64,000 bases of DNA from contig NZ_LT960614.1 of NCBI RefSeq assembly GCF_900231165.1, forward strand, positions 2,788,550-2,852,549, written 5' to 3'. The notes beneath the pieces were generated by a model. The model was not told the origin of the DNA. It ran no database searches and was given only the letters and a program-made list of their open reading frames with translations. Position numbers and translations under genes: made by a program. Positions 2,225-49,057 of this stretch are shown here, in pieces (position 1 is the stretch's first letter; each line of letters opens with the position of its first letter). The stretch is from Hartmannibacter diazotrophicus. Lineage in GTDB: Bacteria; Pseudomonadota; Alphaproteobacteria; Rhizobiales; Pleomorphomonadaceae.

Positions 2225-2674
2225 GTGATATCGCGATTGGTACCGCTTGTTGCCGCGCTTCTGACAACGGACGTGGGCGCGGTCAAACGCCGGGTCGAGC
2301 GCAAGACGGTGGTCTATGCGCTCGTCGCGGTGCTGCTGCTCACCGCCTATGCTGCCGCGGTGACGGGCGGCGCTATCCTGCTGGCCGCGGACTATGGCGC
2401 AGTGGCCGCCGCCTTTCTGGTGGCGATCGCCGCGCTGGTCCTAGCCATGCTGCTGATCGCGGTCAACATGATGATCGATCGCCGCGACCGCAGGCTAATG
2501 CTTCAGAGGCAGGCCCAGGCGCAGCCGATTCTCGCCAGCGCGATGGCTTCACTCCTGCCGTCCGTGATGAAGTCGCCGCTTCTCAGCATCGTCGTCTTCG
2601 TCGGCGCGGCGGCCTTCTTCATGGCCAACAGCAGCTCCGGCAAGGACGGCGACAGCGGCGACGGCCAGGCCTGA
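2225..2674 (+). CDS. DUF1469 / holin-like membrane protein
   Basis: This 149-aa protein starts at GTG, four bases after the DUF883 stop. Residues about 31-55 and 57-83 form a pair of membrane helices, followed by a charged loop (DRRDRR), and a third hydrophobic stretch lies near residues 118-136. The tail is Gly/Asp/Ser-rich. It resembles the DUF1469 / 'phage holin family' proteins that commonly follow DUF883 genes in alphaproteobacteria; these are envelope proteins, not phage holins. Co-transcription from the EcfG-type promoter at 1659 is inferred from spacing. Confidence 0.75.
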   Translation: MISRLVPLVAALLTTDVGAVKRRVERKTVVYALVAVLLLTAYAAAVTGGAILLAADYGAVAAAFLVAIAALVLAMLLIAVNMMIDRRDRRLMLQRQAQAQPILASAMASLLPSVMKSPLLSIVVFVGAAAFFMANSSSGKDGDSGDGQA

Positions 2675-2698
2675 GGACATAGACGCCGGGGCTTCCTG

Positions 2699-3757
2699 CT
2701 ACAGCGGGAATTCCACGACGACATGAGTTCCGACATCCACCGGCTCGCGGCCGACGGTGGCTTGCATGTTCACCGCCATCGCATCGACGATCTTGCTGCC
2801 GATGCCGGTGCCCCGCACGACGGTCTGCTCCGTATACCCGATACCGTCGTCTTCGACAGAGACCCTTGCCCTCTGGTCGTCGACGGCCGATAGCCGGACA
2901 CGGATATCGCCGTCCTCGCCCTCGCGATAGGCATACTTGAACGCATTCGTCACCAGTTCGGAGACGATCACGCCGAGCGAGACGGCCTTGTCGGTCGAAA
3001 TGGAAAGGCCGCCGGGCAGATAGACGATCGGATGGGACTTGTGCTGGCCTTCCAGTGAGGCCTGCAACTCGCCGAGAAGATTCTTCAGATAGTCGTCAAG
3101 CTCGACGGAGCCCACGTTGCCCGAGGTATAGAGCCGGCGATGCACGCCGCCGACGGCCGAAATGCGCGCCTGGGTCTCGCGCAGCGCCTCGACCGCGCCG
3201 GGGTCCTTCAGTGTCGCGGCCTGCATGCGCACCATCGCCGCCACCAGCCCCAGGCTGTTGGCTACCCGGTGATTGACCTCGCGCAGCAGGATTTCCGCCC
3301 GGTCGCGGGCCTCGCGGATCGCCCGCTCGTTTTCCCGCTGCATACGCCTCAGCCGGGCCCGCTCGACCGATTGGGAGATCGCCGCGTCGAGAAGATCATA
3401 AAAATCCTCCGAAAGATCCTTGATCACATAGTCGTCCGCGCCAGACTTGAGGGCGAGGACCGCGACCCGCACATCCGAATGACCCGTGACATAAATGACC
3501 GGCGGGCGTTCCGACCTCGGGCCGAGACGCTGAAGAATATCGAAGCCGGTCTCGCCGGGCATCTCGTGATCGAGCGCGATCACATCGAAGATCGCATCGC
3601 CGAGAAGGGCCAGACCTTCGTCGCCGCTGACCGCATGCACGACCGACCGCCCCCGGCGTTGCAAGGTCTTTTCGACCAGCCGTCCGAAGGCACTGTCATC
3701 GTCGATATAGAGAACACGGACCGTCTCCGGGGCGTCATCCCCGCCGTTCTGCTCCAC
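2699..3757 (-). CDS. receiver-HisKA_2 histidine kinase
   Basis: This 352-aa protein is a response regulator fused in front of a kinase. Residues about 13-130 form a CheY-like receiver with the acidic pair in IDDD and phospho-acceptor D63 (ALDHEMPG). A linking helix leads to a HisKA_2-type dimerisation domain with H163 in LREVNHRVANSL, then an HATPase domain (SELVTNAFKYAY, EDDGIGY, GTGIGSKIV). Kinases of this subfamily often phosphorylate PhyR or single-domain regulators. It is the last gene of a three-gene unit, two bases after the CheY-like gene. It has no membrane segment, so it should be cytoplasmic and phosphorylated through its receiver. Confidence 0.9.
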   Translation of the reverse strand: MEQNGGDDAPETVRVLYIDDDSAFGRLVEKTLQRRGRSVVHAVSGDEGLALLGDAIFDVIALDHEMPGETGFDILQRLGPRSERPPVIYVTGHSDVRVAVLALKSGADDYVIKDLSEDFYDLLDAAISQSVERARLRRMQRENERAIREARDRAEILLREVNHRVANSLGLVAAMVRMQAATLKDPGAVEALRETQARISAVGGVHRRLYTSGNVGSVELDDYLKNLLGELQASLEGQHKSHPIVYLPGGLSISTDKAVSLGVIVSELVTNAFKYAYREGEDGDIRVRLSAVDDQRARVSVEDDGIGYTEQTVVRGTGIGSKIVDAMAVNMQATVGREPVDVGTHVVVEFPL

Positions 3758-44559: not shown

Positions 44560-45636
<1,077 letters not shown>

Positions 45637-45702: not shown

Positions 45703-45775
45703 CATATAACAAGAGCCCAACCAACAAAATGGAATCATTAAGGGAATTTTGCTGTGTTCCATATTTGTTTCGGGC

Positions 45776-45809
45776 GACCTACACCGGATGTATCCCGTTG
45801 AGACATGTA
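45776..45809. repeat. left direct repeat plus left terminal inverted repeat
   Basis: GACCTACACC followed by the 24-bp left terminal repeat beginning GGATGTATCCCGTTG. The composite recurs at 49026..49057 as a direct repeat with one difference in the first 32 bases. Confidence 0.85.
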
Positions 45810-45937
45810 AGGGCGTGAATTTTGCGAATCAAATAGGAAAATCAATGGCTTCCAATCTTGAGTACCGCAAAGCATTGGCCGGAATACGCTGGAGTGCGCA
45901 TTCCGGCCTGAGTGGATTCAGGAATATGGATCCACAG

Positions 45938-46378
45938 TTAGCTGGTGACGGCGCCCGGATCGCTCTGGAAGCCATCCTTCGGGTACTGGATAAGGTCGAC
46001 CGAGGCGAGGACCTCGGTGGCGTCAGTAAGCCCGCTCAGGTCGAACCCCCAGTTCGGGAAGAACCCGTCGTTCTCCTCTTTGACGGCGTGCATGGTCGCG
46101 ACGTTGATGTTCTGGGGCATGAAGCTGGCAACACCCAAGACATCGGAGAAGATGACGACAGCGTTGAGGATCGTCCCGCTTGCTGACGTAAAGAGAGCGT
46201 AAGGCTCAAGAACGGTATCACTCCCGTTGATCTTCGCGGACAGGCGGTGCCTGCTGGCGATGGCGGACGTGATGATGTTGATGTTGTGCTGGAGGTTATT
46301 CGCGGTAGGTGCGCGACGCTGGGTGTTGAATCCGAGCTTGCCGAACTCAAGGCGTCCAAAGCTTCCCAATCCTGGCAT
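45938..46378 (-). CDS. hypothetical cargo protein, possibly WYL-like
   Basis: From ATG 46378 (AAGGA about ten bases upstream) the product has 146 aa; the frame extends to 46423. Residues about 28-120 show an alternating strand pattern with AIASRHRLSAKINGSDTV, LEPYALFTSASGTILNAVV and a following strand and helix, resembling a lone WYL-like ligand-binding domain; no DNA-binding helix-turn-helix is evident. WYL proteins often regulate defence genes. This reading is tentative, and the family is not recognised with certainty. It is divergent from the RexA-like gene. Confidence 0.45.
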   Translation of the reverse strand: MPGLGSFGRLEFGKLGFNTQRRAPTANNLQHNINIITSAIASRHRLSAKINGSDTVLEPYALFTSASGTILNAVVIFSDVLGVASFMPQNINVATMHAVKEENDGFFPNWGFDLSGLTDATEVLASVDLIQYPKDGFQSDPGAVTS

Positions 46379-46550
46379 GCGGTATCGTCCTTCAGGCCGA
46401 GCCGCAAAGCCAATGAAGTTCATATCGTCGGCGACGGCTCACCCTGACAGGTCGCTGACGCAGCGACGGCGGTTGTCAACGAATCGCCGTCGCAACCATT
46501 ATACGCCTCCATGGTCGCTGAGTCGACCCACGGCACAACATGTCGTATTG

Positions 46551-46594
46551 TTCCTAATTTGTCCTAGGTATTCCTCAATATATTGTGTGTTCCT
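46551..46594. promoter_or_regulatory. helically phased TTCCT/GTCCT repeats
   Basis: TTCCT, GTCCT and TTCCT begin at 46551, 46561 and 46571, exactly 10 bp apart, and TCCT recurs at 46591. They lie just upstream of the RexA-like gene in AT-rich DNA, as for an operator array on one face of the helix. No regulator is known. Confidence 0.4.
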
Positions 46595-46657
46595 GAAACC
46601 GCATGATTGATTGATAATGCCTTGAATTTCTTCCCTACGGTTTGGAATCGTGCTTCG

Positions 46658-47536
46658 ATGCACGTCAAACTGGTCTGGGAGGGGATGGTGGAGAAAAAAA
46701 CGTCTTTTCGGTTTTTCAACGTTGACCGACTAGCGGCCAATCATCCGACGTTCGTTGAATCGATCAGAAGAATTTCAGATATTGAGCCAGCGTCACGCAG
46801 AGAGAGAAAACTCGCGCAAGACTACGATGTGCGGCTGGAAGTTATGGAAGATGACGGTCAGCATTGCATATGCGGAGAATTAACTAGAATACAGCGCATA
46901 AACATGCCGTCAGAAGTAATTGAAAACGGTATATCTGCATTAACAACGATAAATCCACTCGGACATTCGATCGTATTTCGATACAATTCCGAGAGAGGAA
47001 TTTTGGGAATACAGAATAACAGCAGGATAATTAGCCCTTCAAGATTTGGTCAGTACATCAGCGAGCATAATGGGGCAGAATTTTATAAATTCGTCCCAAT
47101 TCTCACAAGAGATGCTTGGGAACGATTTTTGAACGGCGGTGTAAGAAGGTTGTGCGTCTCTGTTGCTGGTGCAGAAAATCTAGCGAACCTTCCACAAGAG
47201 GAAGCCGCATCGATTGCTATATCAAGGTTGAGCGAGGCGTATGACGCTCCGAGGATCACCATTGAAATGTCTATGGGACATGGCAAGGGCGGCTTGGCCG
47301 ATGATATTAAGGGGTTCGTTCGAAGTATGATGAACAAGATTGAAGAAGATGATCTTCATGTTGAATCAATGCAGGCCATATCTGACGATAAATCTATAAA
47401 TGAAGGGAAAATTGATTTTCTTGATGACGTTCTATCCCAAACAAGAATAATTGATTACCACGAACGGGACCCAGAGATAAATTACAACATAAGAAAAATT
47501 GTTCTCCGAGAACTCATGAGAGATATGAATGCCTAA
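46658..47536 (+). CDS. RexA-like cytosolic cargo protein
   Basis: This protein has 292 aa from ATG 46658; a TTG at 46607 and ATG at 46685 are alternatives. It lacks a signal peptide and membrane spans. The N-terminal half is beta-rich (FRFFNVDRLA, ELTRIQRINMPSEVIENG), the core has GHSIVFRYNSERGILGIQNN and SRFGQYISE, and the C terminus is helical and charged. I do not recognise a named family with confidence; the segment order and size recall lambda RexA (279 aa) and uncharacterised proteins of similar layout. It overlaps the downstream four-span membrane gene by eight bases, supporting a coupled two-gene system. Base composition is AT-rich, foreign to the host. Confidence 0.75.
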   Translation: MHVKLVWEGMVEKKTSFRFFNVDRLAANHPTFVESIRRISDIEPASRRERKLAQDYDVRLEVMEDDGQHCICGELTRIQRINMPSEVIENGISALTTINPLGHSIVFRYNSERGILGIQNNSRIISPSRFGQYISEHNGAEFYKFVPILTRDAWERFLNGGVRRLCVSVAGAENLANLPQEEAASIAISRLSEAYDAPRITIEMSMGHGKGGLADDIKGFVRSMMNKIEEDDLHVESMQAISDDKSINEGKIDFLDDVLSQTRIIDYHERDPEINYNIRKIVLRELMRDMNA

Positions 47537-48017
47537 CAAATTGACATTGAAGGTTGAGCAGTATGGACCTGTTTTCTCAGGTAGTGCGACCTTTATTGTC
47601 TTGTGCGTGTTCAAGGATGCTACTCTGTCGCATTTTGTTGAACACGATCTGTCGATTGAAGCGTTATATAGCGCAGTATTCGATTGGGCTTCTATTCAGA
47701 CGGGCTTTTTGTTTGGAATATTTGGGTTTATAGCAAGTAAAGGAGATGGTTTTATAGGCGAGATAAGAAACAGTATGCCTATGAAACATTTCATAAAATA
47801 CACGAAGTGGGCGATTTATATAGGGTTCATTCTGACGATCACATCAATGCCGCTTATAGTGCTGGATAAAAAGGCAGCGGATATTGATGATACATGGTTC
47901 TATATAATCGCGCTTTGGTTCTCTATGTTTGTATGGGCGTTCTTGGCCTTTGCTAGAACAGCATATATTTTCGGCGTTCTCGTCGCCGTCGAAGATAGGC
48001 ATCGGATAAAGGGCTAG
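47529..48017 (+). CDS. RexB-like four-span membrane protein
   Basis: This 162-aa protein has four hydrophobic segments, near residues 15-35, 48-70, 88-112 and 122-150, with short loops, one charged loop (SKGDGFIGEIRNSMPMKH) and few periplasmic residues. Lambda RexB is a 144-aa four-span channel that depolarises the membrane when RexA is triggered, so the size, topology and pairing with a RexA-sized partner match. No sequence identity is claimed. Its ATG lies inside the upstream gene's last codons (8-base overlap). AT-rich codon use suggests recent transfer. Confidence 0.75.
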   Translation: MPNKLTLKVEQYGPVFSGSATFIVLCVFKDATLSHFVEHDLSIEALYSAVFDWASIQTGFLFGIFGFIASKGDGFIGEIRNSMPMKHFIKYTKWAIYIGFILTITSMPLIVLDKKAADIDDTWFYIIALWFSMFVWAFLAFARTAYIFGVLVAVEDRHRIKG

Positions 48018-48019
48018 AA

Positions 48020-48220
48020 ATGGTAGTGTCGCCTGAAGTGAAGAAAAACGCTGATGCTGGGAAACGATTTGACCAGCTTCTCAACGCGATGGTCACTTTG
48101 CCTCCGGCCTCGGGAACGCCTGCAAAAGAAGCTCTAGCATCAGGTGCGGGTTCTTCCGAAGGTTCTGCCGGAACTCAAACTCGTGCAGGTAAGTCTGGAG
48201 CCACTTCTGAGAAACGGTGA
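48020..48220 (+). CDS. possible third ORF of the cargo operon
   Basis: Starting two bases after the RexB-like stop, this frame encodes 66 aa: a charged N-terminal part (RFDQLLNAMVTLPP) then a Gly/Ser/Ala-rich tail. The second half overlaps the 3' end of the transposase gene on the other strand, so the tail is probably dictated by that sequence. Short proteins with a RFxxLLxAMV-like motif often follow other genes in mobile DNA, but I cannot name a family. No strong ribosome site is present; coupling is possible. Confidence 0.35.
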   Translation: MVVSPEVKKNADAGKRFDQLLNAMVTLPPASGTPAKEALASGAGSSEGSAGTQTRAGKSGATSEKR

Positions 48221-48977
48221 TGTAGGTTCCCGCGATTGAGCGTTTGACGTTACCCCAGAACGCCTCAATCGAGTTGGTATGAACCTCTCCGTTCACGTAC
48301 TGCCCGTCACGGTGGCTGACCCTGCCGTGCTTGTATCCCTCGTCAGAGAGACCAATGAACGCCTTGGCTTCGTCAGTAGCGATACGGGAGCCGGGGCGAA
48401 CCCATTTCATGATGTGCGGCAGGACATGCTTTGCCGCCTTTGACTCGATAACCCGCGTGATCGTCTCGCCACCGCGTTCGGTGATCCCGAGCACGACGGT
48501 CTTGTCGTCTTGTCCGAGCTTGTCCTTGCCGCCGATGAAAGCCTTGTCCACTTCGACAATGCCGGAACCGGAGCCGCCGACCATACCGTCGCCGTCGACA
48601 TAACCCATGTACTGACGGATCAGGTTGCACATGCGCCAAGCGGTCTTGTACGTCACGCCGATGGTGCGCTGGACTTCCTTGGCGGACACGCCGTTACGGG
48701 AAGCGCAGAACATGAACATGACGGTGAACCAATCGCGCAGGGACGTACGCGTGTTCTCAAACGGCGTGCCAGCGGTCGGATAGACCTGATGGCCGCAATA
48801 TTCGCATTCGTAGGAACGACGAGACTTGACGCGATAGTAGCGGGCATCCCTGCCACACTTCGCGCAGGCATGACGTTCGCCGTAGCGGGTCCGCATCAGA
48901 TGATCCAAGCAGGTGTCATCGTCAGGGAAACGCTCAAGGAAGTCACGAATCGTCGGGAGTGGGGGTGTCTTGCTCAT
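48093..48977 (-). CDS. IS1595 family (ISXO2-like) transposase
   Basis: From ATG 48977 this is a 294-aa transposase. The N-terminal zinc ribbon is clear (CAKCGRDARYY, CEYCGHQVYPTAGTPF), then a helix-turn-helix-like VSAKEVQRTIGVTYKTAWRM, and the ISXO2-type catalytic domain with acidic residues in VEVDKAFIGG and IATDEAKAF and NSIEAFWGNVKRSIAGTY. Length and motif order are intact, so it may still be active. It lies 24 bases inside the right terminal repeat and reads inward. Confidence 0.95.
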   Translation of the reverse strand: MSKTPPLPTIRDFLERFPDDDTCLDHLMRTRYGERHACAKCGRDARYYRVKSRRSYECEYCGHQVYPTAGTPFENTRTSLRDWFTVMFMFCASRNGVSAKEVQRTIGVTYKTAWRMCNLIRQYMGYVDGDGMVGGSGSGIVEVDKAFIGGKDKLGQDDKTVVLGITERGGETITRVIESKAAKHVLPHIMKWVRPGSRIATDEAKAFIGLSDEGYKHGRVSHRDGQYVNGEVHTNSIEAFWGNVKRSIAGTYITVSQKWLQTYLHEFEFRQNLRKNPHLMLELLLQAFPRPEAK

Positions 48978-49001
48978 GTCCGATTTTATAGCACATCTGC
49001 C

Positions 49002-49057
49002 TACATGTCGCAACGGGATACATCCGACCTACACCGGGTGTATCCCGTTGAGACATG
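49002..49057. repeat. right terminal inverted repeat, direct repeat and an extra IR copy
   Basis: The right terminal repeat (49002..49025, inverted) is followed by GACCTACACC and then by another left-type terminal repeat, GGGTGTATCCCGTTGAGACATG (49036..49057), in the same orientation as the left end. The extra copy implies a second element, now lost or deleted, or insertion into an existing terminal repeat. Confidence 0.8.

Follow-up and report, generated by a model that had tools for sequence, protein, structure and literature searches.

The 64,000-nucleotide stretch of the Hartmannibacter diazotrophicus genome analyzed here (hereafter referred to as the window) carries two overlapping genes, A and B, proposed in the original prediction to be a distant analogue or homologue of the lambda RexA-RexB phage-defense pair. 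The questions raised by this locus are whether these genes do encode such a system and on what kind of element they are carried. Our analysis makes it likely that they form an abortive-infection pair of the RexAB type, in which A is the sensor activating the membrane effector B, and shows that this pair is the cargo of an IS1595-family transposon. The anatomy of the genes, their pairing, the predicted fold, the weak profile homology and the transposon ends on which this assessment draws were all computed here.

Gene A had been read as encoding a protein of 292 aa, and the corresponding frame does exist from the ATG at 46658, but in the homologues the protein starts at the following ATG in the frame (46685), making a product of 283 aa the likelier one. 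The 8-base overlap described between the genes is real (A ends at 47536 and B begins at 47529), and the four spans ascribed to the 162-aa product of B correspond to hydrophobic segments at residues 15-33, 50-68, 94-112 and 124-142; its AF2 model displays long helices. Protein A exceeded the curated cut-off (27) of the DUF6731 family (PF20505), with 31.1 bits and an E value of 2.2e-7, and matched phrog_10865, which is grouped here, like phrog_7651, with DUF6731; protein B matched phrog_17119 (E 1.2e-5). NCBIfam and PDB sequence searches with the two proteins returned nothing informative, and PADLOC gave no match for either. The possibility that A and B are chance ORFs was rejected because the pair is conserved, with an identical gene order in 17/17 loci, down to 13-18% identity. 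A transporter reading, the sole trace of which was a weak ABC2 match (E 0.096), was also rejected; neither protein matched a metabolic or transport family above the cut-off, homology of this kind being one of the outcomes that had been set against the Rex proposal. A plain toxin-antitoxin reading was considered and rejected.

The surroundings had been described as an AT-rich mobile element, and composition agrees: GC content is 42.4% in gene A and 41.5% in gene B, versus 62.7% for the window, and GC3 is 0.41 and 0.46, respectively, versus 0.83 for recA. Repeat analysis and the transposase families delimit a complete IS1595-family transposon of 3,242 bp (45785-49026), with a DDE_Tnp_IS1595 and Zn-ribbon transposase, inverted ends and an 8-bp duplication (Table 1). 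These limits, and the status of the pair as cargo, follow from the 25-bp inverted ends and the exact 8-bp direct repeat ACCTACAC. The element, present as a single copy in the 5.45-Mb genome, is flanked by recA (44560-45636) on one side and a cytochrome P450 gene (49130-50359) on the other. The solo left end abuts the right target duplication, such that duplication and end together constitute a 33-bp direct repeat with 45775-45807; it may be what is left of an earlier insertion there. The 161-aa ORF, located in the left third of the transposon, had no significant Pfam or NCBIfam match and no relative in the fetched loci. The 66-aa ORF, which had no match in Pfam, resembles by eye a 77-aa ORF occupying the same place (1434-1667) in another IS1595 element (L009, 592-2417), and could be a genuine small gene belonging to the IS group shared with that element. 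The L009 transposase is 68% identical to that of the window, and this element has two other, uncharacterized passengers (119 aa and 150 aa), hydrophobic segments being present in one of them.

Table 1. Features of the IS1595-family transposon and its edges (window positions).
Feature	Position	Strand	Basis or remark
Left target-site duplication ACCTACAC	45777-45784		8 bp, identical at both ends
Left terminal inverted repeat	45785-45809	+	25 bp, 96% complementary to 49002-49026
161-aa ORF, putative gene	45938-46423	-	GC3 0.765, transposase-like
Gene A, DUF6731, RexA-like, 283 aa (292 aa from ATG 46658)	46685-47536	+	PF20505, Foldseek, profiles
Gene B, RexB-like membrane protein with four spans, 162 aa	47529-48017	+	phrog_17119, four segments, profiles
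66-aa ORF, in part antisense to the end of the transposase gene	48020-48220	+	Reading frame list
IS1595-family transposase, 306 aa	48093-49013	-	PF12762 (9e-37), PF12760; NCBIfam transpos_IS1595 (1.4e-51, over cut-off)
Right terminal inverted repeat	49002-49026	-	Repeat analysis
Right target-site duplication ACCTACAC	49027-49034		Exact 8-bp direct repeat
Solo extra copy of the left end, outside the element	49035-49057	+	97% direct repeat of 45775-45807

The pairing of the two genes extends well beyond the window. A four-span B-type gene lies directly downstream of the DUF6731 gene in all 17 loci (window included), usually overlapping it, and every B protein has four hydrophobic segments with matching spacing. 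The window and its 16 homologous loci share the broad hallmark of RexAB-type systems, a gene for a soluble protein next to one for a membrane protein with four spans. Family PF20505 and a whole-genome search led to these relatives; direct tblastn with the window proteins had no hits among viral contigs or in the collections of phages and plasmids. The family was present in 5 of the 397 genomes examined from the order; the only positive among the 385 genomes drawn from the class was the source genome itself, and 6 of the 398 drawn from the phylum were positive by PF20505. The DUF6731 pair family is rare and patchily distributed, and our literature search retrieved no paper on DUF6731.

The proposed relationship to RexA and RexB was examined by structure and profile-profile comparisons. 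The AlphaFold2 model of protein A, obtained with 14 sequences, is of middling confidence (pLDDT 70, pTM 0.65). Foldseek comparison of this model with the PDB returned lambda RexA (8TWQ; E 8e-5 and 9e-5, probability 1.00), the only other matches with E ≤0.001 being yeast Iml3 or Iml3-containing complexes; RdgC (E 2e-3) and CENP-N came next. RdgC, IML3 and CHL4 are among the structural relatives named in the RexA structure paper (PMC11077077). Whole-chain comparison with 8TWQ gave a TM-score of just 0.34 (rmsd 17), so the match to RexA rests on local, sequential 3Di similarity rather than overall superposition, and a PDB search with a sequence profile of A failed to recover 8TWQ. Protein A is predicted, with moderate model confidence, to have a RexA/RdgC-like fold, and not the unrelated fold that would have spoken against the original prediction.

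Profile-profile comparison pointed in the same direction for both partners. The A family (17 proteins) matched RexA (4 proteins) with a score of 31.5 (E 0.001) in a colinear alignment spanning 150 columns, and the B family matched RexB with a score of 26.4 (E 0.00098) over 45 columns. None of 120 shuffled controls reached either score (maxima 22.4 and 24.3), the column shuffles including shuffling within 10-column blocks, which preserves membrane-segment composition, and the crossed controls (A with RexB, B with RexA) gave no link. The profile evidence alone would be weak, because the probability returned by hhalign itself for the RexA and RexB matches was about 21% and significance was lost with smaller alignments: neither the eight close A proteins nor the phage A proteins alone gave a significant match to RexA, the link requiring the broad family alignment. 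Lambda RexB weakly matched phrog_17119, the family matched by window B (E 0.034). The Pfam models for RexA (PF15969) and RexB (PF15968) did not match the window proteins at E values up to 10, with strong matches for the lambda proteins, and we therefore keep the pair out of these narrow families. The RexA-like predicted fold and the above-control similarity of both partners support the distant relationship first suggested, the profile similarity, albeit weak, favoring homology over mere analogy.

The phage members of the family provide a further point of comparison. In Pseudomonas phage AUS531phi, an annotated CI-family repressor gene is followed by a DUF6731 gene and the gene for a four-span protein (the deposited start of which is later than that of the reading frame used here); the order is cI, rexA, rexB in lambda and repressor, gp44, gp43 in CarolAnn. 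Sequence inspection identified a repressor-like ORF upstream of the pair in viral contigs L037, L038 and L039, with one further small gene in between in L037, and DUF6731 pairs lie in prophage-like surroundings in L030 and L032-L036. The phage pairs have no IS1595 transposase nearby. Window-type and phage A proteins clearly belong, on the basis of their profiles (E 3.8e-23), to one family, the link between the corresponding B proteins being weaker (E 0.00087); in the A tree, the phage proteins lie on a separate side (support 100/99). Among viral structures, a single phage, ctylc9, provided the top match for both A (E 5e-15) and B (E 0.03), and no viral match to the B model fell below E 0.03. 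A position next to a CI-type repressor or in a prophage is found only in these phage relatives: the window pair lies in a 3.2-kb transposon, with no adjacent CI-type repressor, and is not a prophage-borne rex operon.

The closest relatives share the transposon setting in part. Of the eight closest loci (the window and its seven closest relatives), four have an IS1595 transposase next to the pair: the window, Methylobacterium haplocladii (L020; transposase decayed), a Pseudolabrys MAG (L023) and genome G169 (L025). The element in L025 (7721-12047) is the second one found to be complete; its 25-bp ends are perfect, an 8-bp duplication (TATTTTTC) is present, and its contents are A, B, a DUF6471 gene, the transposase, a KilA-N gene and a further gene. 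The left ends of L020 and L023 resemble that of L025; right ends were sought without success in L020, with its decayed transposase, and in L023, where the contig ends. The pair-linked transposases belong to different subgroups, that of the window being only about 25-28% identical to the other three, with different ends and an orientation opposite to the cargo. Each of the three genomes with any IS1595 transposase has only 2 to 3, making chance adjacency to the pair unlikely; we infer a value of about 0.3% per genome, considering a few kilobases. In the A tree, members with and without an IS1595 link are intermingled, a pattern that fits repeated capture or repeated loss. Phages and a mobile element both carry the pair, an association whose absence would have weighed against the original prediction.

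Other IS1595-type copies were encountered in the same genomes. In Methylobacterium haplocladii (L051, G272 contig 5), a second IS1595-type transposase (2602-3570) lies beside an anti-phage dCTP deaminase gene (626-2254; PADLOC dCTPase, 2.9e-158), and at 1983-3035 of L049 (G169 contig 46) an IS1595-type transposase overlaps a RhuM-type gene, the defense candidate PDC-S05 (3.1e-105). Complete ends were sought and not found for the copies in L047, L049 and L051. L050 (G169 contig 15, 2214-4388) is an IS1595 element with ends matching at 16/18 positions and an 8-bp duplication (TATAGAAT), the cargo of which is a 167-aa gene without any family match. Passenger genes are known in IS1595-family insertion sequences; the literature searched contained no report of RexAB-like cargo in such elements.

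For the mode of action, the precedents are lambda RexAB (PMC11077077), P. putida RexABpp (PMC12894663), Sbash (PMC6426596) and CarolAnn (PMC6426606), and it is by analogy with such relatives that DNA binding, activation of B, membrane damage and phage defense may be attributed to the window pair. Protein A, with its RexA/RdgC-like fold, would be a cytoplasmic, dimeric DNA-binding sensor, triggered by the DNA-protein intermediates of replication or recombination of an infecting phage, or by a specific phage protein. Once triggered, A would activate B, a four-helix membrane protein, which would then open, depolarizing or permeabilizing the inner membrane; growth would stop and the infection would be aborted.

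The roles could conceivably be reversed, as reported for the Butters gp30/gp31 pair (PMC7542560; discussed in PMC12894663), with A the growth-inhibiting effector and B restraining it until infection. The Butters layout is similar (A of 403 aa, B of 187 aa, overlapping genes), and activator and effector are indistinguishable from sequence; however, Butters gp30 has no DUF6731 match in Pfam, and the membrane protein is the effector in the lambda, Sbash, CarolAnn and P. putida systems (PMC12894663), so we consider this arrangement improbable. Much the same low probability attaches to a pair serving the element itself, through an RdgC-like A affecting recombination or transposition, or as a toxin-antitoxin-like stabilizer of the transposon. 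The relationship of the A fold to RdgC and the location of the pair inside a transposon in the two complete cases (window and L025) speak for such a role, but half of the eight close relatives have no IS1595 transposase next to them, the related IS1595 elements L009 and L050 lack the pair, and phages carry it with no such transposase in the vicinity.

It seems more improbable still that the pair is a passenger whose function in the cell, such as membrane stress sensing, has nothing to do with phages. The family is rare and uncharacterized, and PADLOC gave it no defense annotation, but its distribution is patchy (5/397 in the order, 1/385 in the class draw), many loci have mobile or phage-like settings, and in phages the pair occupies the immunity region. 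The RexAB-type reading, with A activating B, remains the one we prefer. We see roughly even chances that the alphaproteobacterial DUF6731 lineage of this type is IS1595 cargo, in at least two subgroups, rather than just a prophage trait, and that IS1595 transposons ferry defense genes generally.

A classic prophage defense type seems also to travel in simple transposons, and the small transposon would be a vehicle for defense genes outside prophages and large defense islands. Tying DUF6731 and its four-span partners to RexA-RexB yields a searchable family, the pairs of which offer new experimental models for the question of the RexAB trigger. DUF6731 (PF20505) is listed as being of unknown function, and its linkage to RexA is a proposal of the present analysis.

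The lambda proteins are of the sizes originally cited (RexA 279 aa, RexB 144 aa), and the window pair resembles them in gene order, sizes, the four-span B, the predicted RexA fold of A and weak profile similarity of both partners. It differs in lacking Pfam RexA or RexB matches, in being transposon-borne and not beside a repressor, and in its overlapping genes, the lambda rex genes being separated by a short gap. RexABpp (PP_5643-5644) likewise combines a cytosolic RexA-fold protein with a four-span membrane protein and is detectable just by profile or fold comparison (PMC12894663), but is prophage-borne. Sbash gp30/31, CarolAnn gp44/43 and Butters gp30/31, for which phage defense has been demonstrated (PMC6426596, PMC6426606, PMC7542560), have the same two-gene layout and four-span partner, with overlapping genes in CarolAnn and Butters, as in the window; they are prophage-borne, their A proteins are larger (370-403 aa), and the CarolAnn and Butters proteins have no DUF6731 match. 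The element shares its transposase domains, inverted ends and 8-bp duplication with IS1595-family insertion sequences, from which it differs in its RexAB-like cargo. The best reading is of a known kind of system, the RexAB type, in an unfamiliar lineage (DUF6731) and on an unfamiliar vehicle, an IS1595 transposon.
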